The notes below the pieces were generated by a model, which did no database searches, was not told where the DNA came from, and was given only the letters and a program-made list of their open reading frames with translations. This document shows positions 5,801-31,417 of a stretch of DNA of 32,389 bases, in pieces (the first letter of the stretch is position 1; every line of letters begins with the position of its first letter). Where the stretch lies: contig QNEE01000007.1 in NCBI GenBank assembly GCA_003645085.1, forward strand, positions 1-32,389, given 5' to 3'. Origin of the DNA: a bacterium. GTDB lineage: Bacteria; UBP14; UBA6098. The position numbers and the translations under genes were made by a program.

Positions 5801-8800
5801 TTGACCGGCGCGACGAGTATCGGCGCTTACGCAAGTATCTGGTATCGTTTCGAGGTTACCGAGCCGGGTTACACATTCAAAGATTCGCTCTATGCGCATA
5901 TCTCCGACGGAACCGACGCTGTCGGCAACCCGATAGGCGAACAGGTTACGGATAACGATTTCCGCGTATGGGTCGAGATGCCCGTCGATTTCGAGATTGT
6001 CGATGTCTGGATTGAACCCGAAAGCATCGAGGTCTGGATTGGCGACCCGACAGATACCGAAGAGGATACCGCTCTCGTGTCGCATTACCAAACCTTTGCG
6101 TATTACGCTACGTTCCGCAACAACGGCGAGGATGTAATCGACAGCGTCGAGGTCGCACCGTTCCAGAGTCATGGCTTTAACTCGATAATTACACCGACGG
6201 GGCCGTTTACTTATTACAATAAGGGCCAGGGCTGGACCGAAACGTTATTCTTCGGAGTTATAGCAGATACACTCGACCCCGGCATCAATCCAGAGCAATT
6301 CGACCAGTTTATGATGCTTATCTGGGACGATATCGGTTTCACCGCGCATAACCATCCGCCCGGCTACACTACAGGTCTGTCGACCATAACCGACGACCGC
6401 GCGCCAATCGGAATCCAGGAGCCCTCGCTTCTCGATGAATTCCTTATCTATACGGACGGAGATAGCAATTTCGTCTGGTTGAATATGACGAACACCGTCG
6501 CAGTCGAACTCGGATTGTGGAACCAGTGGGCAACCGCTGCAGGCACCCCGAAGACGGATAGAGCAGCAGCCGATAGAATAAACGACCCGGCCTACGACTG
6601 TATGTTGACCTTTATGGACCCAACCTACACGTGGAACGTAACGGAGGTCATCGACCGCGAGAACCCGATATATGTAACTTCGACGCTTGTAGAGCCGGGC
6701 GATAGCACGTATATAGGATGGGAAATCACATGGGACGGCACACCGCCGCCTTATGAAGGTGCGTTGAGAATATTCAGCGATATCGAATACGGCGACCAGA
6801 ATTGGCAGTCGCAGTTCGATTCTCGTTACAGCCCGGCAAATCGCTGGTTCTCGACCGACTATCTCGGTATCGACGTCTCGCGCCCGACCTGCGAAATTAT
6901 AGCTCCATACGACGGCGGTATGTATCCCGATTACCCCGAGACTATCCGGGTTCTCGCCGACGACGCGGTTTCCGGACTTGTCGAGGACAGCGTGAAGGTG
7001 CAATTCGAGAACCCTCTGGGCGAGATATGGAACGGCACCGACTGGTTCTCGGGAGATTGGTGGTTCACCGCTCATTATGATATCGCTCTCGGGCCGGATA
7101 CCTTCTGGTATGGTATCCCGACGCCGGACCTCGAGGGGTGTTACACCTACAGGGCTTATTCGTGGGACGTTGCCGGCAACCAGTCGCTTATCGACGAGGT
7201 CGATTTCATCTGGGACGCGACCGCGCCCAACAGCCATATAAACTATCCGTATAACGGGTATTACAGTTATACCGCCAATAACCCGTGGGACCAGGTTATC
7301 GAGGTCTGGGCGCTCGATGATACGACAAACGCGCCATACGAATGCGTTTCCCACGTCCGGAGCGTCTATGTCGCTATCCGCGACACGCTGCAGGATAAGT
7401 GGTGGAACGGCAGCGGATGGATAACCGCAGGAACCGCTTACTGGCTGCCATGCACTCCAACTTCCGACCCGGAAATCTGGGAATACCTCGGCTATACCGA
7501 TTCAGCGAGCGTTATTCTCGAGTTCTACTGCTATGCAAGGGATTCCGCAGGGAACCTCTTTGCTCCGGACGACACGCTACAGTATGTCCGAGTCGACGAG
7601 ATAAAACCGAACAGCGTCCTTACCGACCAGACGTTTGCCGAACTACCCGCTTTGGTAACCTGCAATCTGACGGACTGGAACACATTGATGGACGGGAAAA
7701 TCTGGGGTTACGCCGCGGATTCTATCACGAGAGTGGATTCGGTTAAATATTCTATCTGGGAGAGTCTCTCTGATATGCACTGGAATGGCTCGGTATTTGT
7801 GAGCAGCCCGGACGATATCTGGCTCGAACCGGATGAATACAACAAAGGCGGCGGCTGGTTCTCATCGACGACCCATCCCAATCCGGGTATCGCAGTCGAT
7901 TTCGACGACACGCTCTGGTGGCGCAACGATTGGACTCCGCCCGATTACGGTTACTATCGAATCCGCAGTATGTGCTGGGATGATATGTGGCACGAGGAAC
8001 CCGGGTTCGACTCGCAAAACGAGAAATGGGTAATATACGATAACTGCCCGCCGGTAATCCATCCGAGATTCCCGGAGGCAGGCGGTATATATTATATCGG
8101 CGACTGGCACGATAGCCTTGTCGTATTCGCTTATGATAGTTGCGGATATTTGCTCGACGAGGTCGATTCGGTCAAGCTCTGGATTACGGATGCCGCCGGT
8201 AATTATTGGGGTTTGCACCCGTTCTTCCTGATGTGGGGTTGGTGGCCTATGCCGCTTTCGGTCTATGCTACTCCTATCGCCGGCGAGACCGGTCTGTGGC
8301 AATACCGTTATCCCGGACTTATTACTGCGGCAGGCTCTTATACTATGTTTGTCAGGGCTTATGACCAGGCCGGCAACATCGGGCTTAACGCCTGGGGCTG
8401 GACGATTACCGTTACGGGCGCATATCTGACAATAGAGAATGTCGAACCGGACCCCTTCTTCGTGGATGAACACTGGCATTGCCGCGTTGTCGCGTGGCAC
8501 CATCCGGGAGTCGTGGATACGAACTTCGCCGCGGAACTGGTATTCGGCAATACTATGCCCGACCCATTGGACTTCGAGATACTCACACCGGGGCCGTATT
8601 ATACCTATCGCGGCACGTTGGATGTCGAGTGTGTCGGATACGAACCGATACTCGGCCTCGAGGTGTTCGTAGACGCCCCCACGACAACATTACCGAGAGC
8701 ATCCACAGAACCGATAGACATTATCGCAACCCCAGACGACGATATTGCGGGCTATGTGATGGATAACCCGTGCGACCAGGGTAACTGGTTGTGGATAGTC

Positions 8801-11441: not shown

Positions 11442-14400
11442 ATGATGAGAAGAACCCTCGTAGTTCTAGGAATATTGTTCTTAGCCGGCCTGATTGTAGC
11501 GCAGCCGGCAAGTCCGCATACCGTCTATGGTAATGTCCAGCGGTATGAAGGGACGATACCCCCCGAAGCGTGCCTGCATATGCAATTCACGTTCGGTGTG
11601 AATACCTACGATGAAGCCGACCCAGAATTCACTTACGATGAATTAACCGGGACCTTCTTCCTGCAGATTACGGACGATTTATTTTCCGTCGGCGATTCGA
11701 TATATATCGATGCCGGCGATTCCTGTATGTTCGAGGAACAGGTCTATGTGGACGCTTTCGCTTTCGGCCCGGAAACATATATCGGCACTATATACCTCGA
11801 CCCGATAGAGGGCTTAAGGCCGGAGCTTCTCGCCGGTTATATGGACCCCACGACCGGTTATGTAACCGATGTCTTCGAGTTCGGCGTAACCTATCTTTCT
11901 AATCCGTGGGGCCGCGCACCGAATTACGTTCGCTTATGGATAGACGACACCGACTGGTGGAATATGTCCTGGGCCGGAACAGGAACCCCTCATTACGAAC
12001 TGGGAGAGCCTTACACTGTTAGTATCGACGGTTACGACATCGGAAAAGGAGACCATTACTACTACTTCTATGCCGAGGACAGTTATGGTTTGCCGGTCTG
12101 GACCGACCCGGTTGTTTTCACAATTCTCAATTCGGTGCCGACCGCACCCGCTATCCATCTGGAACCAGAATTGGCGTTCGACGACGAGGATATAAACGTA
12201 TTTATAGATACCCCCGGCGACGATGAGGACGACGACCCGTTGTCTTACTACTATGAATGGTATCGCGGCGGCGTGCTCGAAGCCGGTTATTCGGGTCTGG
12301 GAATGAATTCCCTTCCGTTCTCGGCGACGATTATAGGCGAGGTCTGGGAAGTCAGAGTCTATTCATACGATGGTGAGGCGTATAGCCCATACGCTTCCGA
12401 TGTGGCGACGATTATTGCGCCAATCCTTACCGACGGTGAGGTTGCACCGACTGCCGGAGACCGCAGCACTCTGTTCACATATACAGTAACCTACACAAAC
12501 GCGCGGAATATCGCGCCGGAGGGCGTCTATGTTATTATCGACGGCGGAGACCCAATCGAAATGACCGAAGAGCGCGATTACTCCGACGGCGTCGAATTTA
12601 GCTATAGCACTACGCTTGGATTAGGTGAACATACATATCGATTCCAGGCCGACGATGTTCTTGGCCACACGGCAGTGGGCGATACCGGTGAGCACACCGG
12701 ACCGACAGTAGGCAACAATCTGCCTTCGATTACGAATGCTGTTCTATTTGCCGACCCCGACCCGGCCACCGAACGCTCGACTATTACGGCCGTTCCCGCT
12801 GGATGGTATGACGCCGACGGCGACCCCGAAGGCTATCATTATGTGTGGTATATCAACGATAGCCCTATCGGTTATACCGGTGCCACAATCGATGGCGATT
12901 ATTTCGACCGCGGCGATGTGGTCTATTGCGAGGTATTCCCTTACGACGGTTACGACGAGGGGGACGGTATCGCGACCTCGACTATGACCATACAGAACTC
13001 CCTGCCGGACGCTCCGGTCGCAGGTTACGCTCCTATTCCCGTCTACGATAACGACGATATCGTTATAAGTATAACCACTGCGGCATACGACCCCGACGGC
13101 GACCCCCTTACTTATCATTACTCTTGGAGCATAGGCGGCTATTCGGTCGGGCATGATGACGCGACTCTCGACGCATCGGAGACCGAACCCGGCGATTTAG
13201 TGAATGTCGAGGTTTGGGCAAACGATACCTATGGCGACGGAGTTATCTACTCGATGGGCATTCCGGTCAATTGGCCTACCCTTTCCGGGGGCACTGTTAT
13301 TCCTGTAAGCGGCTTACCGACCGAGATATTCCGTTACGAGGTTACATATACATCCGCCCGCGATATCCCGCCGCACATCATTTACGTTATTATCGACGGC
13401 GACGATTTCGCGATGACTCCGACCGACCCCGGCGATATGGTTTATACCGACGGCTACGGTTATTACCTCGAAACTACTTTGCCTTACGGCGACCATACCT
13501 ATGCATTTATCGGAAACGATATTCAGGGGAACGAGGCTTTGGGCGAGGAAGACCCGCGCCCCGGTCCGGTTCAAGAAAACACACCGCCGGAGGTTACAGA
13601 AATAGAAGTTACACCCTATCCCGATGCAACAGAGACGGACACTATCCGTGCCGTCCCAACAGGTTACGACGCGGATAGCGACCCGTTCACGTTCGGTTAT
13701 CAATGGTATAATGCCGCCGGCCCGATTCCCGGTGCGACCGCAAGCTCGATAAGAGGAAATTATTTCGATAAAGGGGATATAGTCCGTGTCGAGGTCTGGG
13801 CAAACGACGGCTGGGAAAACGGCGAATCCGCTTTCTCGGATTACGTAACTATCATCAATACGCTGCCGACCATAAGCGACGTCGACCTGATTGCCGACCC
13901 CGCCGGCTGGTTCAACGAACTCGGCGAGTTGGTCGCGGTAGTAGATGCTAACGATGTAGATGACGACGATATTTTCTATACTTATGTATGGTATGTGAAC
14001 GGTGTGCCCGTTGTTCCGGGGCCCGCTGTCGACGACAGGCTCGATGGTGCCTATTTCGACCGAGGCGATACGGTCTATTTCGAGGTTACTGTCAGCGATG
14101 ACGAGGGTGAGGGCGAAACCGACATATCGGACGAAGTGGTTATCGGCAATGCCCCGCCAGTATTCGAGTATATGTTCCTGTCGCCGGAGAACCCTACCAC
14201 TACGAGCAGGCTCGAGGTGAATGTCGTTGTCAACGACCCCGACGGGGACGATGTCGACCTGACATACGAATGGTTTGTTGACGGTGATACCGTTGCGGGC
14301 TGGTTTAACGACTATGTCCCGGCATCTTTCACCGAGAAACACGAAACCTGGCAGGCGGTCGTAACCGCCGAGGACGAATTTGGCGGTGTCAGTCAGGCTA

Positions 14401-17400
14401 CCGATTCGAAGACTATACTCAACACGCCACCTATTGTCGGCGAGGTCGAGGAAACGTTAGTAGTCTACGGCGTCGATTATTATACGACTATCCGCGCGTT
14501 CGACCCGGATGCCGACCATATTGTCTGGCATCTCGTGGAAGGCCCGGAACATCTGGTTCTCGATACGCTGACCGGCGACCTTTCCTGGACGGACTTCACG
14601 GATGACGATTCGCTAGCTGTCCATTCTGTAGCTATAATCGTTACCGACGACGAGACCGAAGTTCCGGTCGCTTTCAACCTGCACGTGTATCCTTTCAGCC
14701 ACGAGATTTTCGCCCCATCTAATCTCGACGCTCTTAGCGGTTATCTTCTTTCCATCCCGATGAGCTGGGACGCGCCGGTATTTTTCGGCGCCGCTGACAT
14801 TCTGCCGTTGACGTTCGTCGAGTATGAAATACAGCGTTCGACAGACCTCGTTACCTGGTCTCCTCTCGCAACATCGGCAGGAACCGGTTATGTGGACGCT
14901 CTGGTTACGGGCGGCACGCTATACTATTACCGGGTAAGGGCGAGCTATATGGAAGGCCCGAGCTCCTGGTCGAATATCGATTTCGCTACGCCGGGAACAA
15001 TAAACTCCGATATGCTGTATTCGGCATATACCTATATGCCGCTGCCAGAACTCGATGGGGTTATCGAAGCGGGCGAATGGACCGACGCTACCGAGTTCGG
15101 TATCGGCGGTCAGAAGCTATTTATTAAAAATACGGAGAATATGCTATTTATTGCGTTCATAGACGCGGAAGACGACCAGCTTAATGTGGACGACGCTTTC
15201 TATGTTCAAATAGAGGACAGCCATAATCTCCGCTGGCCTGGCGACGAGGGTAGTATCGAGGGCGAGTATCGCGTTACCGTCGTCGACGATACTACCGCAG
15301 ATGCCACATTCCAGGGTATCTGGGGGGTCTACCCCGGTGCTATCGGAAGAGATACCAGAGGCTTCTATGATGAGGTCGACGGCGCGGCTGGCGGTGGTTA
15401 CGGTGAGCCGGTCGTCTATGAGATGGCTATAGCTATCAATCCCGATACGGACTACCCTGCAGCTATCAACAGCAATATTGGTAATGTCGTTGGGTTCAGG
15501 TTCGCATCTTACGACGCCGGAATGCTCACCTGGACCAATGAGTGGCTTACCGGCAGCCAGGCTACCGACCCGGAATCGTTCGGCAATCTGATGCTCGGGG
15601 TAGGGGCAGGCGGACCAAAATTCAGCGTTTGGCGTAGGTCCTACGAGGTCTGGCTACTCGAGGGCCTAACGACCGACCGACCGATGTGGGTCTCGAACCT
15701 CGGCAACGGTAGTATCGATTACGAGCTTTACGAAAGCTACTTGCCGTTCCGCGACCGCGATGAAGACCACCCGGTTCTTCTATATACGGACGAACAAACT
15801 ATTGGAGAGGACGCCCTTACGTTCCTGGGTTACTCCTACGACCTTGTCAATACCTCTGCCGCTTTCTTAACCGCGATAAGTTCAGAGGATTATGAGGCGG
15901 TTGTGGTCACCCGACTCGAGGCTTTGACCGTTGCCGAGTTGGCCACGCTCGAAGCTTACGTTGTCGACGGCGGTAAGGTTATTATAAACTGCCCCGACCT
16001 CGAAACTACAGGCACACATACGTTCTGGACAACACTCGGAATGGATATCTTCGGGGACCTCGGGCTTTACGGCAGCGCAATAACATGGGAAAACGACGCC
16101 CATCCGATATTTAATACACCGCTGGGCGTTCCACCGTCGGTAGAGACTGTCGAGGGCACTTTCGACGATTACGGCGACGCAGTTCTCAGCACCGGCGCGA
16201 CTATCCTCGCCACTTTCGACGATTTGCCCTATCCGGCTAACGGCGCTATCGCACTTTCCTCCGATGCCAATGTTATACTCAACAGCTTCGTGATGAGCGA
16301 TAGCCGCGATAGCGACTTCGACGATATGATTGACGGCGTGGAATTGCTGGTCAACGAGATATACTATCTTATCGCGCTGGAAGATATCCCATGGCTCGAT
16401 GTCGACCTGGAAAGCGGGACGCTGGCGAGCCACGAAACCCACGACGCGGTCGTAACATTCGACGCGACATACCTCACCGAAGGAGATTATCTGGGTTATA
16501 TAATGGCGACGTCAGACGACCCGGTAACCCCGCTTATTCCGGTGCCCTGTATGCTCCATGTCCGTGCGCCGACATATCACCTCGTCAGGATAGAATTCCC
16601 GGACGAATTGCTGATGTTCAGCCCCGGCGAGTCTTTCGAACTGCCTATCACGGCGACAGGTATCGAAGACGCCGGAATCTACGAATTGAGTATGACCATT
16701 CAGACCAATTCGACCGTGGTGTCACCAGTCAACGTTACCAGTGATTACGATGTCGTTGTAACCGGTTACGACCTCGACTATATTACATTCGAACTGACAA
16801 ACGATATCGTTATGGAGGACGGCGAGGTTTGTATGGTCGAGTTCGAGATGAACGATATGGCACCGGTGGCGGCGTTCAGTAATCTGGATATCGGTTCTAT
16901 AGGCTATAATGACGATGCTTATGTGGGAACTGTCGACGATGTGGACGGGCGCGTTATGGTCGAGGCCGGCGAGATGGACTGGGCGATTGAACTCGAATTC
17001 ACTCACGGCTCGCTTTCCGACGTGATTTACATCGGTGTGAACCCTGAAGGAACCGACCTGTATGATGTCGGGTTGGATATGCTTAACGACCCGCCGGGTG
17101 AATGGTTCGACCCGTTCAGCGACGTTTCTGACCTCGACCCGGGCAATCCGCAACTCGACGGCGATATTCGCAGCCCATACGACGACCTGATTACCTGGTA
17201 TATACCCGTGGGGGATTCCGCCGGTAAGCTGGAATGGAGTTTCCGCGACGAGGACACTCTATTCGCGATGGGCAGCCTGTTCCTTAACGGCGATATAGAT
17301 ATGAAAACGTCGTCGGTGTATTTCTTCGACCCGGCTGAAACTCTGATAATTACATACCGCCGCACCGGCGAATCCCCATTCGTCGTGAATCTCTATCCGG

Positions 17401-18482
17401 GTTGGAATATGGTTTCGCTTCCGATAATCCCCAGCGGAATAGAAGCTACGCCGGCGAACGTCTATCCCGGAGCCGAATACGTCTACTATTACGACCCCGC
17501 GACAGGCCTGTGGGCGGAAGCGACCGCAATAGAACCGGGCGTGGGTTACGTTCTGTTGTCCACATCTGAACAGCATTATACACTCTGGGGACAGCCGCTC
17601 GATTCATATACCTATGAACTGATTCGCGGGTGGGACTTGATAGGCTCTATATACCGGGATGTTAATTTCTCCGCCCCTACGACCAGTCCTCCGGGTGCTG
17701 TTATGGGTTCGCCGGACCACGCTTATTACTATGATGTTCTTTCGGCGACATATATAAGCTCGGACGAACTCGAACCCGGAAAAGGATATTTCGTCGCGTC
17801 GAACCTCGATGCCACACTCTCCATACCGGGAATCAGCGGACGCAAAGCTTGCGCGGTAACCAAAGATTATTCGGTTGCGTTGAACGTCGATATTGCCGGC
17901 GAAACGACTTCGTTAGTTCTCGGCGCGGCTTCCGCCGATTGGGTTGCGCCTATTCCGCCGACTATCGATGGCTCGGCTCCGTCAGCCTATCTATCCGTGG
18001 ATTGCTGGAAAGCGGGCGAGGCCTATTTCGTAGACGGAGTAACCTGCGACCTGATTGTCTCCGACGGCGCGATAGTAACTATCTCCGACTTGCCGGAAGG
18101 GTTAAGCGCCACAGTCGAAGTCGGCGGCCGAACCTTAACTCTCGAAGAGTCTATCGAACTACCGACAGCTGGAACATATAAGGTCGTTGTCGGCGACCTC
18201 CCGAGAAAATTCGCGCTGCATCCCAATATCCCGAACCCGTTCAACCCGACTACAACTATCTCGTTCGAGTTGCCTGAACGCTGCGATGTGAATCTCGAAA
18301 TCTACGACCTGTTGGGCAATAAAGTTATTACGCTCGCTAACGAGGAACTTACTGCGGGCGAGCACAGAATAACATGGGACGGCGAGGACAGCTACGGAAG
18401 AACGGCCCCCAGCGGCGTGTATTTCTACAGAATAAAAGCTGGAGAAAACAGCGCAACTCGCCGCATGCTGCTCCTCAAATAA
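11442..18482 (+). CDS. Giant secreted multidomain protein 2 (2346 aa): two-Cys module, A/B Ig-PKD-like repeats, cadherin-like, FN3, CBM9/DOMON-like, BACON-like with nested Rossmann/GATase1-like domain, cohesin-like, GWN x2, C-terminal sorting domain
   Basis: Signal peptide MMRRTLVVLGILFLAGLIVAQ; SD GGAGGG; DADGDP repeats; end FALHPNIPNPFNPTTTISFELPE...SGVYFYRIKAGENSATRRMLLLK. Confidence 0.92.
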   Translation: MMRRTLVVLGILFLAGLIVAQPASPHTVYGNVQRYEGTIPPEACLHMQFTFGVNTYDEADPEFTYDELTGTFFLQITDDLFSVGDSIYIDAGDSCMFEEQVYVDAFAFGPETYIGTIYLDPIEGLRPELLAGYMDPTTGYVTDVFEFGVTYLSNPWGRAPNYVRLWIDDTDWWNMSWAGTGTPHYELGEPYTVSIDGYDIGKGDHYYYFYAEDSYGLPVWTDPVVFTILNSVPTAPAIHLEPELAFDDEDINVFIDTPGDDEDDDPLSYYYEWYRGGVLEAGYSGLGMNSLPFSATIIGEVWEVRVYSYDGEAYSPYASDVATIIAPILTDGEVAPTAGDRSTLFTYTVTYTNARNIAPEGVYVIIDGGDPIEMTEERDYSDGVEFSYSTTLGLGEHTYRFQADDVLGHTAVGDTGEHTGPTVGNNLPSITNAVLFADPDPATERSTITAVPAGWYDADGDPEGYHYVWYINDSPIGYTGATIDGDYFDRGDVVYCEVFPYDGYDEGDGIATSTMTIQNSLPDAPVAGYAPIPVYDNDDIVISITTAAYDPDGDPLTYHYSWSIGGYSVGHDDATLDASETEPGDLVNVEVWANDTYGDGVIYSMGIPVNWPTLSGGTVIPVSGLPTEIFRYEVTYTSARDIPPHIIYVIIDGDDFAMTPTDPGDMVYTDGYGYYLETTLPYGDHTYAFIGNDIQGNEALGEEDPRPGPVQENTPPEVTEIEVTPYPDATETDTIRAVPTGYDADSDPFTFGYQWYNAAGPIPGATASSIRGNYFDKGDIVRVEVWANDGWENGESAFSDYVTIINTLPTISDVDLIADPAGWFNELGELVAVVDANDVDDDDIFYTYVWYVNGVPVVPGPAVDDRLDGAYFDRGDTVYFEVTVSDDEGEGETDISDEVVIGNAPPVFEYMFLSPENPTTTSRLEVNVVVNDPDGDDVDLTYEWFVDGDTVAGWFNDYVPASFTEKHETWQAVVTAEDEFGGVSQATDSKTILNTPPIVGEVEETLVVYGVDYYTTIRAFDPDADHIVWHLVEGPEHLVLDTLTGDLSWTDFTDDDSLAVHSVAIIVTDDETEVPVAFNLHVYPFSHEIFAPSNLDALSGYLLSIPMSWDAPVFFGAADILPLTFVEYEIQRSTDLVTWSPLATSAGTGYVDALVTGGTLYYYRVRASYMEGPSSWSNIDFATPGTINSDMLYSAYTYMPLPELDGVIEAGEWTDATEFGIGGQKLFIKNTENMLFIAFIDAEDDQLNVDDAFYVQIEDSHNLRWPGDEGSIEGEYRVTVVDDTTADATFQGIWGVYPGAIGRDTRGFYDEVDGAAGGGYGEPVVYEMAIAINPDTDYPAAINSNIGNVVGFRFASYDAGMLTWTNEWLTGSQATDPESFGNLMLGVGAGGPKFSVWRRSYEVWLLEGLTTDRPMWVSNLGNGSIDYELYESYLPFRDRDEDHPVLLYTDEQTIGEDALTFLGYSYDLVNTSAAFLTAISSEDYEAVVVTRLEALTVAELATLEAYVVDGGKVIINCPDLETTGTHTFWTTLGMDIFGDLGLYGSAITWENDAHPIFNTPLGVPPSVETVEGTFDDYGDAVLSTGATILATFDDLPYPANGAIALSSDANVILNSFVMSDSRDSDFDDMIDGVELLVNEIYYLIALEDIPWLDVDLESGTLASHETHDAVVTFDATYLTEGDYLGYIMATSDDPVTPLIPVPCMLHVRAPTYHLVRIEFPDELLMFSPGESFELPITATGIEDAGIYELSMTIQTNSTVVSPVNVTSDYDVVVTGYDLDYITFELTNDIVMEDGEVCMVEFEMNDMAPVAAFSNLDIGSIGYNDDAYVGTVDDVDGRVMVEAGEMDWAIELEFTHGSLSDVIYIGVNPEGTDLYDVGLDMLNDPPGEWFDPFSDVSDLDPGNPQLDGDIRSPYDDLITWYIPVGDSAGKLEWSFRDEDTLFAMGSLFLNGDIDMKTSSVYFFDPAETLIITYRRTGESPFVVNLYPGWNMVSLPIIPSGIEATPANVYPGAEYVYYYDPATGLWAEATAIEPGVGYVLLSTSEQHYTLWGQPLDSYTYELIRGWDLIGSIYRDVNFSAPTTSPPGAVMGSPDHAYYYDVLSATYISSDELEPGKGYFVASNLDATLSIPGISGRKACAVTKDYSVALNVDIAGETTSLVLGAASADWVAPIPPTIDGSAPSAYLSVDCWKAGEAYFVDGVTCDLIVSDGAIVTISDLPEGLSATVEVGGRTLTLEESIELPTAGTYKVVVGDLPRKFALHPNIPNPFNPTTTISFELPERCDVNLEIYDLLGNKVITLANEELTAGEHRITWDGEDSYGRTAPSGVYFYRIKAGENSATRRMLLLK
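11815..14435 (+). repeat. Higher-order domain repeat A0-B0, A1-B1-B2, A2-B3-B4-B5 in giant protein 2
   Basis: A: G.V.P..G....F.Y.VTY.......P..VYVIIDG...M......Y..G........L..G.HTY.F...D..G; B: LP.I........PDPAT....I.AV..G.DADGDP..Y.Y.WY.NG..I......I.G.YFDRGD.V..EV...DG. Confidence 0.7.
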
Positions 18483-18614: not shown

Positions 18615-21600
18615 ATGTCCCTGAACAAGCTCCTTTGGCTCGCAATAATTATAGCCCTCGCAGCATCGGTCTTCGGACAGCCCCATATAGTGATGGGGTC
18701 TTTGCGTAATTCGGATAACAGTTACCCCAATCCGGATTGCATTATTTTCGAGGCCTGGATGACCGCTCGCCCGACCGAAATCCTTACACAGGAATCCGAC
18801 GGCTGCGATGTCGCCGACACTATGTGGTTCGTCAATATCGGCAGTTTCCATACCGCACCGGATGACGGCGAGGAACTTAATATCTGGTTCCGCGACACCT
18901 GCCTCGCCGAAACATTGACCGTAACAGGGACTGTTACTATCCCCGGTGCCGAAGAGAACTGGGGTAGTTTTACGCTTGTTCAAGAGCTTAAAGAAATCGA
19001 TATCACCTATCCTAACGGCGGCGATTATTTCTACTGGGACGACCCGATAGATATAACCTGGAACACGGTCGGTATCGTTACGGATGTCGCTATCAAATAC
19101 TCGCCGAACGCGGGATTGGACTGGTTTCCCGTATCGTTGTCAACCCCGAACGACGGCCTTTTCGAGTGGAGCGCCCCACATATAACGTCCTACGACGTTC
19201 TGTTCTGGATTTACGAGGTCTCCGACCCATCGGTGGATGACGTTTCCGACGGCTTCACTATTATTACACAGGCGCCATCGGTTCAGATGGATTACCCCAA
19301 CGGCGGAGAACTGTTCTGGGTCGACGATGTGGAAACGATAGAATGGTCGACTGCGGGGCCGGTCGGGACAGTCGAATTGCATATATCCTATAACGGTGGG
19401 GCAGATTGGGTCTATATCGACGGTGGACTCGGAGGGCGTGGCACTTACGATTGGACCGTGGTCGGCGACCCATCTACGAACTGCCTGTTCCGCGTCCGCG
19501 ATGAGGGCGACACGGCCGTATTCGATGTTAGCGACGCGGTTTTCGAAATCGACACGGTCGACCTGCCGCCTCCGGTAGACACTATACCACCCGCGCAGAC
19601 TACCGACCTATCCGTTATAGAGGTCGAACCGACCCGTGCGCATCTGACCTGGACTGCGCCGGGCGATGACGAGAATGTAGGAACGGCGACAGAATATATT
19701 ATGGGCTATGATGTATTCGATTTCGACTGGCCTCCGGCGAATTTTGTCCCCGCGATGCCGGCGCCCCAACCGGCCGGTTCCGATGAAGACGTATGGATAG
19801 AGGACCTCGACCCGGAGACGGAATACTGGGCAGCTTTAATCACACACGACGAGGTTCCGAACGAATCGCCCGTCTCGAATATGGTAAATTTCACTACTCC
19901 GGCAATCCCCGATACTATTCCGCCAGCGGATTTCGTTATCGATACGGTCGAATCGCGCGGAATTAGCTGGGACGAATTCGATATATACTGGGAAGCCCCC
20001 GGCGACGACGGCGATGTCGGCACGGCAAGTTATTACGATTTCCGATTCTCGACATCGGCGATTACGGAGGGTAATTTCGATATTTCGCCCGAACTAACCG
20101 AGGGGGTGCCGGACCCCTTACCCGCCGGGACACCGCAGATGCTCACGGTTAGCGGCCTAGAACCCGAAACCGATTACTGGATTGCGGGTAGAGCGTTCGA
20201 CGACGAGGACAACCCGGGCCCGATATCGAACGTGCTGATGATTACCACACCGGAATATGTCGATGAGATACAACCCGACCGTATTACGGACCTGACCTGC
20301 GGCGACCTCGACCCGAACGCTATCGAGCTTATTTTCACCGCTCCGGGAGACGACGGAGATACCGGAATTGTAGGAATCGGCTACGAGATACGCTATCAAC
20401 CCGATGTCGATTTCGACCCAATCGATTGGACATTCGTTCCGGTCTACGACACTATTCCACCGATGATGGCCGGAACGGAGGTTCACGTCTATGTGGAGGG
20501 TCTCGATAGCGGACGCGAGTATTTCTTCACCGTTCGTTCTCTCGACGACGACGGCCCCGACTCCGACCCGTCGTTCGTTACCGGATGCTGGACTATCGGG
20601 ACGGTCGGTCCGATTCCCGACCTCGTTAGGAACGAGGACGACCCGGATACCAATCTACCGCCGCTTTCAGGCGTGTTTCACCCGCCGAGCGGGATGGTCT
20701 ACGACGTCGTTTCTACCGAAGAGGGCGTAACGGCCACCCTTGTGGATTCTTCATACGTTCGGGTAGGTCTGGAACTGAATTATTTCGGCGAAAGCTGGAT
20801 TATTATCACCGCTACCGACGGCGAAGATGTTCTATACGACTCGGTCTATGTAACGGTCAATCCGGTGAACGACCCGCCGGTATTTATATCTTTCCCGGAA
20901 GATACGCTGCTTCTCGACGGTTTTCCGTGGAACTATCTGGCTATTGCCGACGACGCCGATGGCGATGTTGTATCTTACTTCCTTTCCGGCGGCCCCATCG
21001 GTATGGAGGTCGATATTACGGGTTATGTCGATTGGCTCCCTATCGATATCGAAGGGACGTATAATATACAAATCGCCGCTTGGGACGCCGAGGATACAAC
21101 TATACAGGAATTTAACCTCGTAGTTATAAAATATACGCACCCTGTATTCTTCCCGCAAAATCTCGAAGCTCTCGACGGTTTCCGCGGTTGCATCCCTGTT
21201 ATGTGGGACGCGCCACCGGCAGTTAGCACAGGTCTACCGGTAAATCTTTCCCACTACAGGCTCTATCGGAGCGAATATTTCGACATCGGCTACAGCGTTG
21301 TCGCCGATTCCGTGCCATACAACAGCTATTCGGACAATACTGTCGACCCCGGACGACTTTACTTCTATAAAGTCCAGGCGGTCTACCGCGACCCGGATTT
21401 CAACAGCGGGTTCTCGAATATAGACGGCGGCGCCTCGCTGGATGGTAATTTGCTTTACAGCAACTACACTACGACGGGGCCACCATCCCTGGACGGCAAC
21501 CTGAACGAACTTCCGTGGTTCGAGGCCACTATGGCTGTCCTGACCGACGATGCCGAGGTTCTACTAGCCAACGACCTGCATTATCTGTATGTCGGCCTCA

Positions 21601-24260
21601 GGATGGACGCATCTCTGGTCGATGGTTACACTTTCCGCTTTTTCTTCGACGATAATTACTCGAGAACCTGGGACCCGGCGAGTTCCACAGAGGGTTATTA
21701 CGAGATGACCTACGAGGCGGGAATGCCTTCTGTCGTGTATTTCCACCCGATTAACGTAGATTCGGTCGAACCGGCCGTGGTCTCGTCGGGTGCCCTTGCG
21801 GCCTGGGAGACGGTAGCGCCCGGCGATATGAGTCTCGAACTGGTAATAGATATGACTTTGCTCGAGGAGTTTTTCGCGCTGCCCGCTGATACAATCGGCG
21901 TCGCGCTCCAGCTTCTTAACGAGGTGGGAACGCCTTTATTGAACTGGCCGGTCGGCGCCGACTTCTATTCTGCCGACGAGCTTGCCACGTTACTGCTTGG
22001 CGCGCCCGGCGGTGTTCCACAATTCCAGGTTTCGCCTTTGATACTCGATGTCGAACTCGAAACCGGCTGGGAAACCGACGTTCCAATGAGACTTATCAAT
22101 ACTGGCGACGGAACCGCAGTCTGGTCGCTCGAGGAGGACGCCGCTTGGCTGAATATAACGCCCGAATCGGGTATTATCCCCCCCGGGACCGAAATCGGAA
22201 TAAATGCTCATTTCGTTTCAGGGATACTGGATACGGGACTTTACACCAGTGCCATAAGCTTTTTCTCTAACGACCCGATTGTCCCAGAGCAGAACGTGCC
22301 CGTCGAGTTCACGGTTACGCCAAAAGTGCCGTCGCATTACCTCGAGGTTTATCCGCCGAACGAGATAACGGCGAGCCCCGGAGACCTTATCGAAATACCG
22401 ATATACGTGGGCGAAACCTACACAAACGAGATTACCCAACTGGACTTCGCCGTTCTCACGAACCCCGATTTTATTACGCCGTTAACCGTTAATCGCGGCG
22501 CGGGCCTCCCGGCGGACTGGACCCTTATAGTAAGAAATATTTCGTTCGACCGCGTCCTCGTGAGACTGATAGGCCCGGAACCGATTTCCGGCGAGGCCGA
22601 AGTTATCAAAATAGAATACGCGGTAAGCACGAGTGTTCTGGTGGGTCGAAGCTGTCGTATAGACATTGCCGACCTGATTTTCAACTACGGACTCGACGAC
22701 CTGCCGATACCGGTCCCGATGAGCGGCGTTTTGGTTATCGGCGACGAAATAAGGTTCTTCTGGTCGGGGATGCTCGTTCACTACGATACGGCGTGGGAAA
22801 GGCAGGACTCGATACGGTTCGGCCTGCTCGATGCATCCACGGAAAACTACGACCCCGGAATCGACGTCCTCAATCTGCCACCGTTCCCCGGGCACAACGA
22901 TGCCTGGTTCTTAAGCGACGACTGGCGTATGTTAGGCACCGATATACGTCCAACCGGGGGATATGTTACCTGGGTGGCTTACTTCGAAGACGACGGATAT
23001 ATAGTCTGGGACCGCAGGCAGATGTGGGAAGGGCTGATTATGGATGGCTGGCTCGATATGACCGAGGACAGCCTGTTCGAGGTTCACCCCGATGAGCCGG
23101 TTATCATTACATATAACTCTACCCCGGGCGAGTTTACCTGGGAGATAGACATCAAGCGCGGCTGGAATATGATAAGCGCCCCGATTGTCGCTCCTTCGAT
23201 GAGCGTATCGGCACTTTTCCCGACCTCGATAGGCGGTGTCTGGCGCTGGAGTAATTCGCTTCTTTCCTATGTCGAGGAGCTTAACATCCAGATAGGCAGA
23301 GGTTATTGGCTGCTATCGAACAGGGATACGACCTATACGCGCACGGGAAATGCAGTCTATAACTACGACCGCAGTTTACCCACCGGATGGGTTATGCTCG
23401 GTAGCCCGGCGCACAGAACATATCTCGAAGACCAGGATATCACCCCGCCGGGTGCTTCAATGGAAGGGACTTTCTATTACTACGATACCGAGGGAATACC
23501 GCGTTACAGGTTGACCGACGAGTTCGTGCCGGGGCGCGCACAATGGATTTTCTGCAGTGAACCGGCAATTGCGAGAATATCCAGCATATATTTGCCCAAA
23601 GAAGCGCCAGATGTAGAGCGAATTCCCGAACTTTCGGGCGAGATTTATATCGAGGACGACCCAGGACAATTCGTGAGTTTCGCGATGGTCGATAATCCGA
23701 TGGACAGACCCGCTCCGCCAGCGGTTCCGGGAACTTCGAACAGAATAACTCTCGACGGCGAGATGCCGCTTTTCCACAGTGAGGTCTCTCCAGCCCGTAG
23801 CGCGGAATGGACTGGCAAACTCGAATTGGCTAAAAATTCCGCAATAGGCTGGAAATTCATCGGCGAGGGCGAATTCGTATTCGAAGTGGATGGTATAAGC
23901 TACAATATGTCTGATTGGAGCGGAATCGAAATCCAGGCCGGAGCGCATAATTTCAAGGTTACAGTCCGGAAAACGCTTCCAGACAAATTCGCGCTTCTAC
24001 CCAGCGTGCCGAATCCGTTCAATGCCGCGACTCGATTAAGGTTCGCTCTTCCTGAAGACAGCGAGATTACGCTCTCGATTTACGATATTACCGGAAGGTC
24101 AGTAAGGAAGTTAGTCGAGGGCGAAACACCTGCGGGCTATCATCGCGCGGTATGGGATGGTCGCACCGACGCCGGCAAAGAGCTGCCGAGCGGTATCTAT
24201 TTCTCGGTCCTAAAAACCGGCGACAGGGTCTTTAACCGTAAGCTATTGCTTATTAAATAG
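18615..24260 (+). CDS. Giant secreted multidomain protein 3 (1881 aa): two-Cys module, two PNGGE Ig-like modules, three FN3, cadherin-like, FN3, CBM9/DOMON-like, BACON-like, cohesin-like, GWN x2, C-terminal sorting domain
   Basis: SD AAAGGAGGAG; signal MSLNKLLWLAIIIALAASVFGQ; VMGSLRNSDNSYPNPDCIIFEAW; ITYPNGGDYF / MDYPNGGELF; WTAPGDDENVGTA, WEAPGDDGDVGTA, FTAPGDDGDTG; end PNPFNAATRLRFALPE...SGIYFSVLKTGDRVFNRKLLLIK. Confidence 0.92.
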   Translation: MSLNKLLWLAIIIALAASVFGQPHIVMGSLRNSDNSYPNPDCIIFEAWMTARPTEILTQESDGCDVADTMWFVNIGSFHTAPDDGEELNIWFRDTCLAETLTVTGTVTIPGAEENWGSFTLVQELKEIDITYPNGGDYFYWDDPIDITWNTVGIVTDVAIKYSPNAGLDWFPVSLSTPNDGLFEWSAPHITSYDVLFWIYEVSDPSVDDVSDGFTIITQAPSVQMDYPNGGELFWVDDVETIEWSTAGPVGTVELHISYNGGADWVYIDGGLGGRGTYDWTVVGDPSTNCLFRVRDEGDTAVFDVSDAVFEIDTVDLPPPVDTIPPAQTTDLSVIEVEPTRAHLTWTAPGDDENVGTATEYIMGYDVFDFDWPPANFVPAMPAPQPAGSDEDVWIEDLDPETEYWAALITHDEVPNESPVSNMVNFTTPAIPDTIPPADFVIDTVESRGISWDEFDIYWEAPGDDGDVGTASYYDFRFSTSAITEGNFDISPELTEGVPDPLPAGTPQMLTVSGLEPETDYWIAGRAFDDEDNPGPISNVLMITTPEYVDEIQPDRITDLTCGDLDPNAIELIFTAPGDDGDTGIVGIGYEIRYQPDVDFDPIDWTFVPVYDTIPPMMAGTEVHVYVEGLDSGREYFFTVRSLDDDGPDSDPSFVTGCWTIGTVGPIPDLVRNEDDPDTNLPPLSGVFHPPSGMVYDVVSTEEGVTATLVDSSYVRVGLELNYFGESWIIITATDGEDVLYDSVYVTVNPVNDPPVFISFPEDTLLLDGFPWNYLAIADDADGDVVSYFLSGGPIGMEVDITGYVDWLPIDIEGTYNIQIAAWDAEDTTIQEFNLVVIKYTHPVFFPQNLEALDGFRGCIPVMWDAPPAVSTGLPVNLSHYRLYRSEYFDIGYSVVADSVPYNSYSDNTVDPGRLYFYKVQAVYRDPDFNSGFSNIDGGASLDGNLLYSNYTTTGPPSLDGNLNELPWFEATMAVLTDDAEVLLANDLHYLYVGLRMDASLVDGYTFRFFFDDNYSRTWDPASSTEGYYEMTYEAGMPSVVYFHPINVDSVEPAVVSSGALAAWETVAPGDMSLELVIDMTLLEEFFALPADTIGVALQLLNEVGTPLLNWPVGADFYSADELATLLLGAPGGVPQFQVSPLILDVELETGWETDVPMRLINTGDGTAVWSLEEDAAWLNITPESGIIPPGTEIGINAHFVSGILDTGLYTSAISFFSNDPIVPEQNVPVEFTVTPKVPSHYLEVYPPNEITASPGDLIEIPIYVGETYTNEITQLDFAVLTNPDFITPLTVNRGAGLPADWTLIVRNISFDRVLVRLIGPEPISGEAEVIKIEYAVSTSVLVGRSCRIDIADLIFNYGLDDLPIPVPMSGVLVIGDEIRFFWSGMLVHYDTAWERQDSIRFGLLDASTENYDPGIDVLNLPPFPGHNDAWFLSDDWRMLGTDIRPTGGYVTWVAYFEDDGYIVWDRRQMWEGLIMDGWLDMTEDSLFEVHPDEPVIITYNSTPGEFTWEIDIKRGWNMISAPIVAPSMSVSALFPTSIGGVWRWSNSLLSYVEELNIQIGRGYWLLSNRDTTYTRTGNAVYNYDRSLPTGWVMLGSPAHRTYLEDQDITPPGASMEGTFYYYDTEGIPRYRLTDEFVPGRAQWIFCSEPAIARISSIYLPKEAPDVERIPELSGEIYIEDDPGQFVSFAMVDNPMDRPAPPAVPGTSNRITLDGEMPLFHSEVSPARSAEWTGKLELAKNSAIGWKFIGEGEFVFEVDGISYNMSDWSGIEIQAGAHNFKVTVRKTLPDKFALLPSVPNPFNAATRLRFALPEDSEITLSIYDITGRSVRKLVEGETPAGYHRAVWDGRTDAGKELPSGIYFSVLKTGDRVFNRKLLLIK

Positions 24261-26093: not shown

Positions 26094-27488
26094 TTATATT
26101 TCTACTTGTTCGCCCTCGTAGGGAACCGTTACCTCGATTCTCGGGCGCGCCTCCTTGACAGCGGCCGCAAACGATAGCGATTGCTTCTCCTCGCCGTGAA
26201 CGATGAATACGCGTTCGAGAGCCTTACCGCAATTCTTTACATAGTCCAGTAGTTCGTCACGGTCGGCGTGCGCGCTAAACGTATTCAGGACGACAATATC
26301 AGCCATTACAGCGTGCTCTTCGCCGAATATCCTGACCCTCTTCTCTTTCTCGACCAATCTGCGACCCAGCGTGTTTTCCGCCATATACCCTACGATAAGT
26401 ATTGTATTGCGCTTATCGCCGATATTATTTTTTAAATGATGCAGAATGCGTCCGGCTTCGCACATACCGCTGGCGGAGATTATAACCATAGGAGTCGGGT
26501 CGTAATTCAGCGATTTCGATTCCTCGACGCGCCGAACATAACGCACCTTGCCAAACCCGAAAGGGTCCTCGTGTTCGCGTATCATCCTCTGCGCTTCGGA
26601 GTCGAGATATTTGAGATTACGACGGAAGACCTGTGTAACGTTTATTGCCAGCGGCGAATCGATAACTATAGGTATATCGGGAATGCGGCTCTCATTATAA
26701 AGCTGATGCAGATAGTAGATTATTTCCTGAGTCCGTTCCATAGCGAAACTCGGCACTATAATCTTCCCGTCTCGCTCGACGGTGCGGTTGATAACGTCCT
26801 CGAGCTCCCCTTTAGCGTTTTCGACCGGGTCGTGCAACCGGTTGCCGTATGTCGATTCGATAATAAGGTTTTCGACCCCCGTTATTTGCTTAGGGTCGTG
26901 CAGGAGCGGGAGATTATTCCTACCAAGGTCGACCGCATAGGCGAAACGTTTTCTCTGGCCGTTCTCCTTAACCTTAAATTCGGTGATTGCGCTGCCGAGA
27001 ATATGCCCGGCGTCCCAGAAAATAGCCTTTATGTTCGATGTAACCCCGAACCAGCGGGAGTAGGGTCGCGGGACAAATTGGTGAACCGCGTCGATAGCGT
27101 CGGCTAACTCATAATTCGGTTCTATCGGTTTCAAACCTTTTCTGGCACGCTTTTTATTCACATATTCGATATCGCGTTCGTGAAGATAGGCCGAATCGGC
27201 GAGCATATATTTACATAGGTCGTCGGTGGGTTTTGTCGCGTAAATCGGCCCCGTAAAACCCTTTTTAACCAAACCGGGCAGATTGCCGGAATGGTCGATG
27301 TGCGCGTGACCGAGAACGACGGCGTCTATCGAGGAACAATCGAAAGGCAGGTTGCGGTTTTTCCTGCTGGTTTCTTCGCGATGTCCCTGAAACAACCCGC
27401 AATCCAGAAGAACACGTTCGTTGTCGGTTTCGATTAGATGCTTCGACCCGGTAACTTGTCGCGCGCCGCCGTAAAACGTTATCCGCAT
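26094..27488 (-). CDS. MBL-fold/beta-CASP metallohydrolase (CPSF/YSH1-like RNase family)
   Basis: MRITFYGGARQVTGSKHLIET, LDCGLFQG, GHAHIDHSG, DAGHILGSA, ESTYGNRLH, SGMCEAGRILHHLKN, FSAHADRDELLDY. Confidence 0.94.
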   Translation of the reverse strand: MRITFYGGARQVTGSKHLIETDNERVLLDCGLFQGHREETSRKNRNLPFDCSSIDAVVLGHAHIDHSGNLPGLVKKGFTGPIYATKPTDDLCKYMLADSAYLHERDIEYVNKKRARKGLKPIEPNYELADAIDAVHQFVPRPYSRWFGVTSNIKAIFWDAGHILGSAITEFKVKENGQRKRFAYAVDLGRNNLPLLHDPKQITGVENLIIESTYGNRLHDPVENAKGELEDVINRTVERDGKIIVPSFAMERTQEIIYYLHQLYNESRIPDIPIVIDSPLAINVTQVFRRNLKYLDSEAQRMIREHEDPFGFGKVRYVRRVEESKSLNYDPTPMVIISASGMCEAGRILHHLKNNIGDKRNTILIVGYMAENTLGRRLVEKEKRVRIFGEEHAVMADIVVLNTFSAHADRDELLDYVKNCGKALERVFIVHGEEKQSLSFAAAVKEARPRIEVTVPYEGEQVEI

Positions 27489-27504: not shown

Positions 27505-29718
27505 TTACTTTAATAAAACAATTCTCGCTGTTTGGGATTTGCCGGCGCGAACAAGATATATTCCCGAAGATAGATTCTCTTCCGGTCGCCATATAGCCTC
27601 GCTGGGGCCCGTCCCTGGTCCGCCGGTTTCGACGCTTCGTATCGTTTCGACAGGCAATTTAGCAACCTGACACCCGCAGATATCGTATATTTCGATATAC
27701 CGAAATTGACTATAACCATTCTCTATGAAAATCCTGCAGGACGAATTAAATGGATTAGGGTGAACGGATATTCGGAATATATCGGGATTCAACCTGTTTT
27801 CCGACGCGATAACTGCGGTCGTGTCCGGATAGAATATCGAAACGTCGTCGATATACCAGCCGACCTGTGTGTTCACGCTCGACGAGCCGAAGTCCCAGCT
27901 AATATCCACATTCTCGCCACGCCAGAGACTTAAATCGGCGGTAACTTTGTGCCACCACTTAGCCCCGCTGAGGTCCGCGAACGCCTCCTGATACGGTATG
28001 AGATTGTTCCACTCGCTCATCGTGGCGATATAACCGGGTTCTGGTGTAAGTATAACGCTGTCAGTAGGCGAAGTCCATACTTTGATATTCCCGCCGTCGT
28101 GCCATGCAAAAGGGGTGCCGGTCGGCGGCTGGAAACTATACCACTGCCAGAAAGACAGTGTAAGGCTGTCCACATCCGGGAGAACTATATCCTCTAACAC
28201 CAACCGGCTCTGGCTGGAATCGTGATATTCGCCGGTAAGTTCGGTCGCCCAAACCTTATCGCCGGAATGAGCCGCGATAATTCCCTGCGACGGAATCCCC
28301 CATTCCCAATCCTCGTAATAGGCGAAACTACGTGTTAAGAACCCGCCGTTATCGGCCTCGAAATCGGTCTCGAAAACGTATTCGAGGTCTCTCGGTGTAA
28401 GCAGAACATCGAGCCGTGTCAACCCAGAATCCGGAACGACTACTGTAACGCTTTTCTCGGAATAACCCGGTTTGCTGAACGTCAGGTGATAGGTCCCGGC
28501 GAGTAATATCCGATGATAATAACCATTATCCGGGTCGGAAAAGACCTCCTTATCGACCTCGTCGATTTTGACATTTACGCCGAGACTTTCACCGGTTACA
28601 CTGTCGGTTACGACTCCGTGAACGCCGTGGTTTAGCATAACCTCGACAGCCGCCAGATACGCGTCGTAGTTGTCTTCCCACAGGTCGTCGAGAGTGCTAA
28701 AAGACGGCGTTTTTATATTATTTAGTTCTACCGTAAGATGCAAGTCGCCGTTAGTCCAGTAGGTCCAATCCTGTATCGAACCATCGACCTCATACCAATC
28801 GTAACCGTTAATTATACCGTATGGGAAACTACCAGAATACATAGGCGGATTGCGAATAGAGTAATTCACCGCGATGAATTTATACAGAGAATCATCGGTC
28901 GTGCGCGGCTCCTTATAATCCCATGGGTAGTTGGCTACCAAAGCCCCCGTATGGAAATTTATTGTGTAGCTTATGTTATGTTGCGGAAACCAATTCAGTA
29001 TGGCATCGGTCTCCGGCTCGACAGAAAATAAGTTGTCCTCTCCAATAGTCCCGTCCGGGACGGGATAATTTCGATTAAGGTCGATATTATGAGCGTTTCG
29101 CCTCGTCATAGCAACATAACCGTCCGGGTTCAGAAGCGGATTGATAAATATCTCGCACGAATCGACAAGCCGCGTTATTCGCGGGTCTATACCATAGTTG
29201 TCGGTCAAAGAATCGATAAACCACATAAGGAAAATCATTCCGGGTGGTTCGTCGCCGTGCATTGTGCTGATATAGCAGAATTCCGGCTCGGTTTCGTCCC
29301 ACGTGACCCGCGTGGATATTTTCATCATCAAAAGCGGCCTGCCGTTGACCGACCAGCCGAATGTATCCAGATTCGCGATGATTGGATGGTCGATTGCAAC
29401 ATTCTGCATAAAAGTAACGTATTCGGAGTGCAGAGGATACCCCGATGGTTCCATATTGGCGGCGGCGATGCGCCTCGCGTCCGTATCTGGCAATATCTCG
29501 ACAGGATAGCCCAGATTTTCCAGTGCAACCAAATCTTCCTCCCAGACGACACCTCTTGCGATACCGGTTTGGTTGTTATAATCGTCGACCATAAATCCCG
29601 CGTAGACAGCCTCGCGCAGCGACTCGCGGTCCGGAACGACGATTTCTACGGTAATTTCGCCGGAATATGAATAGGAGCAAATTAACACCGCAAATAGAAC
29701 GACATACGCTTTTCTCAT
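27505..29718 (-). CDS. Secreted M14 zinc carboxypeptidase with regulatory-like Ig domain, MAM/immune-inhibitor-A-like domain and C-terminal sorting domain
   Basis: Signal MRKAYVVLFAVLICSYSYSG; STMHGDEPPG (HxxE), NAHNIDLNRNYP, NFHTGALVANYPWD, LTVELNN; ends PNPFNSSC...SGIYLVRAGKSQTARIVLLK. Confidence 0.92.
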   Translation of the reverse strand: MRKAYVVLFAVLICSYSYSGEITVEIVVPDRESLREAVYAGFMVDDYNNQTGIARGVVWEEDLVALENLGYPVEILPDTDARRIAAANMEPSGYPLHSEYVTFMQNVAIDHPIIANLDTFGWSVNGRPLLMMKISTRVTWDETEPEFCYISTMHGDEPPGMIFLMWFIDSLTDNYGIDPRITRLVDSCEIFINPLLNPDGYVAMTRRNAHNIDLNRNYPVPDGTIGEDNLFSVEPETDAILNWFPQHNISYTINFHTGALVANYPWDYKEPRTTDDSLYKFIAVNYSIRNPPMYSGSFPYGIINGYDWYEVDGSIQDWTYWTNGDLHLTVELNNIKTPSFSTLDDLWEDNYDAYLAAVEVMLNHGVHGVVTDSVTGESLGVNVKIDEVDKEVFSDPDNGYYHRILLAGTYHLTFSKPGYSEKSVTVVVPDSGLTRLDVLLTPRDLEYVFETDFEADNGGFLTRSFAYYEDWEWGIPSQGIIAAHSGDKVWATELTGEYHDSSQSRLVLEDIVLPDVDSLTLSFWQWYSFQPPTGTPFAWHDGGNIKVWTSPTDSVILTPEPGYIATMSEWNNLIPYQEAFADLSGAKWWHKVTADLSLWRGENVDISWDFGSSSVNTQVGWYIDDVSIFYPDTTAVIASENRLNPDIFRISVHPNPFNSSCRIFIENGYSQFRYIEIYDICGCQVAKLPVETIRSVETGGPGTGPSEAIWRPEENLSSGIYLVRAGKSQTARIVLLK

Positions 29719-29728
29719 AATTTCTTCT

Positions 29729-31417
29729 TTATTTCATAAGCACGACGCGTGCGACTCGGTTATCGCCGTCGATTAAAGGCCTTATAAGATATATTCCGCT
29801 CGGTAAGTTTTCGCCCGAATTATCCAGACCGTCCCAGATCCCTGCCTCCATAGTTCTTACGAGTCTCCCGGAAATGTCGAATATTCCTACCGTTCCGGGA
29901 GTTTCAATTCTGCACGAAACATTGAAAGGATTCGGGACGATTTCTATAGAGTTCTTTTGTGGTCGAGGTCTATATTCTTCTATTTGCGCGAGTCTCACGG
30001 CCCGATACGCGTTAAGAAGACCGTAACCGGATTCGTTGTCCCATCCGGGTTCTATTATATCCGTCGCCGTGGTCGTAATAATACTATAACACTCGCTATT
30101 TGTATAGCTCGGGTTTTCCGCGCGGACGAGAGCGAGAACGCCAGCGACAATCGCCGCCGATAAGCCCGTCCCCACACCCGAATAAGCTATGTGTTCCCCC
30201 GGAGAATACCCTCGAGATGTATCGGCTACACTCGCCACTCCCGTCGACCATATAAGTTCTGCAGGTTCACCCCATTCTAATTCGCCGCCCGGAGCGACTA
30301 TTCCGATATGCGTTCCCGAATTTGAGAAAATACTTTTATCCAATTCGGAAGTGCAACTGCCCACACATATACAATTATCGTAACCCGCCGGGAAAAGCAC
30401 CGTGTCGCAGCCCGTATCTCCCGAAGGCGCTATTATTGTCGCGCCGCACGTAAAAAGCGAATCGATTCCGTAACGAATTACGATGTCGTCCTCGACTGCG
30501 AGGTCGATATAAACGATATCGATGTCGAGTATCGACGCCAGTTCGAGCGCCTGAAGGACGTCCGATGTATAACCCCAGCCTTCCGCATTAATCGCCCTGA
30601 TAGGCACTATCGTGCATTGCGCCAATCCCGCGAACATAAAATCGTTGTCTATCTCCGCGCCGATAATACCCGCCGCTGCAGTCCCACGCGAGACCGCGCG
30701 GTCTGGAGAATAAGTCGAATCGTAATCGGATAGCCCGTTGCCGCAGGACGGGTCCGGTTCCCCCCAGCCGTCGTCGCCGAAATAGTGGATATCGGGGTTG
30801 CCGTCCTCCTGCATCGAGTAGATACCGGGATTCAGAGCCTCCTCGACACTGCCGTGGACGCCGCCGACAAAATCGTAACCGTCGACCGGGTTTATATTCG
30901 CCGCTAAATCGGGGTGGTCGATATCGACCCCCGAACTTATAACTCCGACCCGAATCGAAGGTAAGCCCGTTTGATAATCCCACGCCGACAGCGCGTCGAT
31001 AAGTTCGAGATAATGCTGGTCGGGGATTGTATCCGCGCCAGCAAAGCCCCCAAAATAAGGGTCGTTGGGATAATGAAAGCTCGCGGAAACAAGCGGGTAA
31101 TTCGGAACGACCCACCGGAAAAGACGGGTCGATGCATAGTATTCTATTCGTTCCGTATAAGCTATTTCGATTGTGGTCCGGGAAACATCGAGCGGATTCG
31201 GGATTCGACACTGGATTTTATATATATCCCACAGATTTAAAAACCGCGTAATTCTGTCTCCGCCGGATATGACAACCTTTTCGATTTGCTCGAATCTCGT
31301 ATCGGAATTAGGTCTAACTAGGATTTCTCCATAGCACATATCGGACGGTTCACCGAATCCGACGGCGCAGAAAGCCACAGTTAACGCCGCTGCTATCTGC
31401 ACTGCGCGACATCTCAT
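29729..31417 (-). CDS. Subtilisin-like S8 family protein lacking catalytic residues (predicted pseudopeptidase), with C-terminal sorting domain
   Basis: S8 fold motifs recognisable but substituted: VISSGVDIDHPDL (for VIDTGV.HPDL), SRGTAAAGIIGA (for HGT..AGIIGA), APSGDTG (for ASGN.G), GVGTGLSAAIVAG (for GTSMA.P.V.G); intact ORF; ends PNPFNVSC...SGIYLIRP...ARVVLMK. Confidence 0.88.
   Translation of the reverse strand: MRCRAVQIAAALTVAFCAVGFGEPSDMCYGEILVRPNSDTRFEQIEKVVISGGDRITRFLNLWDIYKIQCRIPNPLDVSRTTIEIAYTERIEYYASTRLFRWVVPNYPLVSASFHYPNDPYFGGFAGADTIPDQHYLELIDALSAWDYQTGLPSIRVGVISSGVDIDHPDLAANINPVDGYDFVGGVHGSVEEALNPGIYSMQEDGNPDIHYFGDDGWGEPDPSCGNGLSDYDSTYSPDRAVSRGTAAAGIIGAEIDNDFMFAGLAQCTIVPIRAINAEGWGYTSDVLQALELASILDIDIVYIDLAVEDDIVIRYGIDSLFTCGATIIAPSGDTGCDTVLFPAGYDNCICVGSCTSELDKSIFSNSGTHIGIVAPGGELEWGEPAELIWSTGVASVADTSRGYSPGEHIAYSGVGTGLSAAIVAGVLALVRAENPSYTNSECYSIITTTATDIIEPGWDNESGYGLLNAYRAVRLAQIEEYRPRPQKNSIEIVPNPFNVSCRIETPGTVGIFDISGRLVRTMEAGIWDGLDNSGENLPSGIYLIRPLIDGDNRVARVVLMK

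Follow-up and report, generated by a model that had tools for sequence, protein, structure and literature searches.

Few bacterial S8 peptidases that have lost catalysis are known to have a function, and our literature searches yielded essentially only the Csp proteins of C. difficile. In this species, the dead S8 homologues CspA and CspC are encoded with the live CspB; the prodomain of CspC stays uncleaved, and a CspC:CspA heterodimer controls germination (PMC6636752, PMC12880746). Relatives outside the Csp pseudoprotease lineage have only active versions (PMC6636752, PMC12880746). The Csp family is defined by a jelly-roll insert of approximately 130 amino acids within the subtilase domain (PMC6636752).

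In this study, we analysed an S8 subtilase gene in a window of 32,389 nucleotides (the whole stretch of DNA considered here, which is contig C7 of a 2.67 Mb draft genome of 268 contigs and approximately 90% completeness). The product, referred to below as the dead protein or dead copy, is most likely catalytically inactive, judging from its active-site residues. It has in common with CspC and CspA a subtilisin-like fold, a prodomain, a catalytic loss that includes the change of Ser to Gly, and a live S8 paralogue alongside. CspC and CspA have lost two triad residues, whereas the dead protein has lost all three and the oxyanion Asn. The Csp proteins belong to the spore and contain a jelly-roll insert, whereas the S8 domain of the dead protein (312 amino acids) is without this insert, is followed by a putative type IX tail and comes from an unrelated phylum. 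Membership of the Csp family was rejected on the missing insert and the different context, and the likeness to Csp is one of arrangement only. Compared with the live PF00082 orthologues of its own phylum, the dead protein has the same near-full-profile domain and the same layout of prodomain and tail, but lacks the catalytic and S1 residues and a DxDxDG-rich insert, and its prodomain is shorter. Compared with type IX cargo proteases (Por_Secre_tail / TIGR04183), its tail is homologous to above-cut-off tails of the same genome but lies just below the curated cut-offs, and its enzyme domain is dead. The features of the locus are collected in Table 1.

Table 1. Features of the dead S8 gene and its neighbours, with positions in the window
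Feature	Position	Strand	Basis
Beta-CASP metallo-beta-lactamase-fold RNase-like protein, end of conserved gene row	26094..27488	-	Profile match, gene order
M14 zinc carboxypeptidase	27505..29718	-	Profile match; start 10 bases after dead-gene stop
S8 subtilase, most likely catalytically dead (pseudopeptidase), 562 aa	29729..31417	-	ORF, Pfam, fold, substitutions
C-terminal sorting tail of T9SS type (PNPFN...)	29732..29962	-	Profile scores, comparison with live tail
S8 domain, aa 155-466, profile positions 4-288 of 288	30020..30955	-	Pfam
Nucleophile Ser position, Gly418 (GGC); GTSMACP changed to GTGLSAA	30164..30166	-	Alignment, codon read
Oxyanion Asn position, Asp334 (GAT)	30416..30418	-	Alignment, codon read
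S1-pocket segment, invariant Ser and Gly of SLG changed to Asp305 and Ala307	30497..30505	-	Alignment
Catalytic His position, Arg244 (CGT)	30686..30688	-	Alignment, codon read
Family-specific block DGNPDIHYFGDDGWGEPDPSCGNG	30734..30808	-	Alignment
Deletion point of DxDxDG-rich insert (~35 residues), between Asp179 and Gly180	30878..30883	-	Alignment
Catalytic Asp position, Ser161 (AGT)	30935..30937	-	Orthologue alignment, codon read
Prodomain, inhibitor-I9-like beta-alpha-beta layout	31100..31333	-	Model vs live-orthologue model; alignment
Predicted Sec signal peptide (MRCRAVQIAAALTVAFCAVGFGE), boundary approximate	31349..31417	-	Read from sequence
Live S8 paralogue, C-terminal 323 aa, cut by contig end	31417..32389	-	ORF, Pfam

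The assignment of the dead protein to the S8 fold was secure. Peptidase_S8 (PF00082) matched it at 92 bits against a gathering cut-off of 21.8, and its AlphaFold2 model had a mean pLDDT of 80.1, with most of the subtilase core above 90. The model was superimposed on subtilisin and thermitase with TM scores of 0.90-0.94 (normalised to target length), which indicates that the catalytic columns were not misassigned. Solved subtilisins were also aligned pairwise with the dead protein as a second test of column equivalence beside Pfam and fold. An intact triad hidden by misalignment was ruled out by the orthologue alignment, Pfam, the solved-structure alignment and the fold; the equivalence of the S8 columns, for which an earlier note on this sequence had proposed HMM alignment and structure prediction as a check, was thereby upheld. 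The same note had listed substitutions of the catalytic Asp, His and Ser and of the oxyanion Asn. All four were found at the codons that it named, and the orthologues from 12 relative genomes of the phylum have D, H, N and S at these columns without exception (12/12). The Asp-His-Ser triad and oxyanion Asn by which an active S8 peptidase is recognised are thus absent, and the second His of the HGTH motif is Ala247. The altered SLG segment corresponds to Ser125-Leu126-Gly127 of subtilisin, in which the Ser and Gly line the S1 pocket. The DxDxDG-rich insert missing from the dead protein is present in every live orthologue aligned, where the loop is probably calcium-binding.

The earlier description of the reading frame as otherwise intact was borne out for most of the protein. 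The 562 codons contain no stop or frameshift, the N-terminus resembles a signal peptide (helix 3-18 was modelled at low confidence), and the I9-like prodomain, approximately 25 amino acids shorter than in live orthologues, and the fold are kept. The sorting tail is the part for which the description needs qualification, with 21 vs 27 bits for FlgD_ig and 21.1 vs 23 for TIGR04183, just under the curated cut-offs in both cases. This tail is 49% identical to that of the live copy, which scores above the cut-off. The genome encodes a PorU-like sortase (566 vs a cut-off of 420 bits) and SprA_N (112 vs 27 bits) and has 110 matches to the sorting-tail model, which together make type IX secretion plausible.

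On the minus strand, the live S8 gene, represented by its C-terminal part, precedes the dead S8 gene, the M14 carboxypeptidase gene and the beta-CASP gene in this order, and the live-gene stop and the dead-gene start overlap as TAATG. In three relatives (G001, G002 and G004), M14 directly follows the live S8 gene, and the beta-CASP gene comes next in G002 and G004; the dead gene thus lies at a junction where no gene is present elsewhere. The SGN and GTSMACP motifs attributed earlier to the upstream gene were both read in its C-terminal part. At the right end of contig C77, which belongs to the same genome, we located an S8 gene of the family type, represented by its N-terminal half and running off at the matching place; where they overlap, it shares 80% identity with the orthologue from the sister genus. 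From this fit and the contig ends, the two halves almost certainly belong to one gene. Recovery of this half, as the earlier note had proposed for reading the Asp and His of the live copy, yielded an intact catalytic Asp, while the His codon falls within an assembly gap of approximately 30 codons (approximately 100 bases). The live state of the neighbour is supported by its residues at D, N and S, the His lying in the gap.

The distribution of S8 active sites was surveyed in S8 domains from 17 genomes of the phylum, which were aligned or read, together with the 12 orthologues. The complete domains comprised 99 with D-H-N-S, seven with E-H-N-S and one, the window copy, with S-R-D-G; a few others were truncated. 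The window copy is the only domain among approximately 100 complete ones in the phylum with all four positions replaced. A wider group of dead S8 proteins in the phylum was rejected, because the seven Asp-altered proteins have Glu at this column and the other three residues (His, Asn and Ser) unchanged. A search of 17 genomes of the phylum found no orthologue of the dead copy in the 16 other species, and a first scan of genome contigs found none either. An alignment-based scan returned typical S8 proteins alone, and its patterns held the Ser motif and were thus biased toward live ones. A search for the same live and dead pair in related genomes, suggested in the earlier work, accordingly ended with the dead copy absent from every other phylum genome examined.

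The origin of the dead copy is probably older than a recent tandem event. The motif WST.VASVAD...PG.HI, previously taken as support for tandem duplication of the two neighbours, also occurs in distant orthologues of other families; it is therefore ancestral to the phylum-wide orthologous group and provides no evidence of recent tandem duplication. The dead copy is 31-40% identical overall to the live orthologues. In the maximum-likelihood tree, it grouped with its family (95/98) and outside the five live copies of this family (86/95), on a branch of 2.67 vs a median of 0.3 (about nine times). A sister pair of dead and live copies was rejected only marginally by AU tests in two data sets (p 0.034 and 0.047). 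Recent tandem duplication is not favoured, given the phylum-wide motif and a tree and AU tests that lean against a sister pair, but the long dead branch makes this judgement less certain. An old duplication, with the split near the family base and loss in sister lineages, appears more likely from these sequence comparisons, and a younger duplication followed by fast evolution of the dead copy less likely. Some of the change on the long branch may date from a time when the copy was still an active enzyme.

The pattern of conservation separates the fold from the active site. The dead copy retains 73 of the 93 residues that are invariant among the live orthologues, compared with 71 of 232 at columns that vary (p 3e-15), which argues against free drift over the whole branch. 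The losses are densest around the active site: of the invariant residues no more than five positions from a catalytic column, 11 of 21 are retained, compared with 63 of 73 elsewhere (p 0.002). Retention of this kind indicates that selection preserved the fold while constraint on the active site was relaxed, a pattern compatible with a protein maintained for its fold and its surface. In the stretch around GDDGWGEPDPSCGNG up to the His motif, 19 of 20 invariant residues are kept. The dead S8 looks like a maintained pseudopeptidase rather than a decaying gene, as judged from a single genome with no orthologue of the dead copy found in the other species.

We therefore propose, with a probability of roughly 65%, that the gene encodes a secreted subtilisin-like pseudopeptidase, which arose when the live S8 gene of its operon was duplicated, probably long ago. 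This duplication would fall on the stem of the bacterial family or close to it. The dead copy would then have lost the triad, the calcium-loop-like insert, the S1-pocket segment and the oxyanion Asn while keeping its fold, prodomain and secretion tail. The protein would be exported by the type IX secretion system of the genome along with its live neighbour and would fold with its own prodomain as chaperone. A protein without catalysis could not cut its own prodomain, which would stay covalently attached, and the dead protein would act by binding. The earlier idea of a retained secreted pseudopeptidase stands insofar as the protein is fold-intact, dead, apparently retained and placed beside a live paralogue and M14, while the tandem-duplication evidence offered with it does not.

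The gene order and the TAATG coupling speak for a connection with the live S8 and M14 enzymes. By analogy with CspC and CspA, the most likely role of the dead protein, although a tentative one that is less probable than not, would be as partner or regulator of its live paralogue, or as a binder that presents a shared substrate to the live S8 and M14 enzymes. It is possible, if somewhat doubtful, that the two genes form an independently evolved live/dead pair: the pseudopeptidase, secreted by the type IX route and unable to shed its prodomain, would regulate or target the live enzyme of the operon at the cell surface. If true, the pair would represent a second, unrelated origin of a Csp-like arrangement, outside sporulation. 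Dead proteases are already known elsewhere; the present protein adds a clear-cut case to them and does not establish a new principle. A second, unrelated dead S8 with all four mechanistic residues lost and with live orthologues in 12 relatives provides a clean comparison, which bears on the role of the subtilase fold without catalysis and on whether live/dead operon pairs recur as a control of secreted proteases.

The preserved surface could also belong to a free-standing adhesin, ligand binder or structural protein of the cell surface, unlinked to the live protease and using the subtilase fold as a displayed scaffold. The retained secretion signals and fold, the almost complete retention of the GDDGWGEPDPSCGNG block and the many exported cargo proteins implied by approximately 110 sorting-tail matches would all suit such a protein. 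However, the place of the gene within the live S8-M14 row and its TAATG coupling suggest a shared role, and we consider the free-standing binder rather unlikely.

Recent disablement would instead place the gene on its way to decay, its frame intact as stops had not yet accumulated. The absence of the dead gene from the junction in relatives, the lack of an orthologue and the very long branch agree with such a history. However, so many changes (to every mechanistic residue, to the S1 segment and to the loop insert) take time, and the fold residues have been selectively retained. Neutral drift was simulated on a comparable coding sequence of 420 codons in 100 runs. At the observed identity, the runs had accumulated a mean of nine stops and not one run was free of stops (0/100), whereas the real frame of 562 codons contains neither a stop nor a frameshift. 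Stops were gained early, with a mean of 1.9 (zero in 11% of runs) at 10% of residues changed and a mean of 3 (zero in 4% of runs) at 20%. On this evidence, recent decay is improbable. A re-tooled enzyme using other chemistry through, for example, Asp334, Arg244 or Asp305 would explain the polar residues that fill the former active site, but there are no orthologues showing conservation of the new residues, no enzyme with the S8 fold is known to us to function in the absence of Ser and His, and this reading is very hard to credit.

Several further observations were made on the genome and its relatives. The Glu-bearing proteins of the survey form a separate S8 clade with Glu for the catalytic Asp (VTVTEGVEWYHPDLYD) and intact His, Asn and Ser (loci L131, L151, L156, L163, L167, L120 and L137); the clade is conserved in several genera of two families and is possibly an E-H-S subtilase variant. 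The end of contig C77 (G000:C77:11170-12079, L268) contains a DNA stretch closely resembling the dead paralogue. The beta-CASP protein at 26094-27488 matched the NCBIfam model of type VII CRISPR Cas14 at 402 bits, against a cut-off of 800, and also matched aCPSF1; it is probably an ordinary beta-CASP RNase. Three giant ORFs at 2822-10612, 11442-18482 and 18615-24260 (2596, 2346 and 1881 amino acids) end in C-terminal tails of FlgD_ig/CHU_C type and apparently encode large secreted surface proteins, and the third is conserved in G002 beside the same Omp85 gene.
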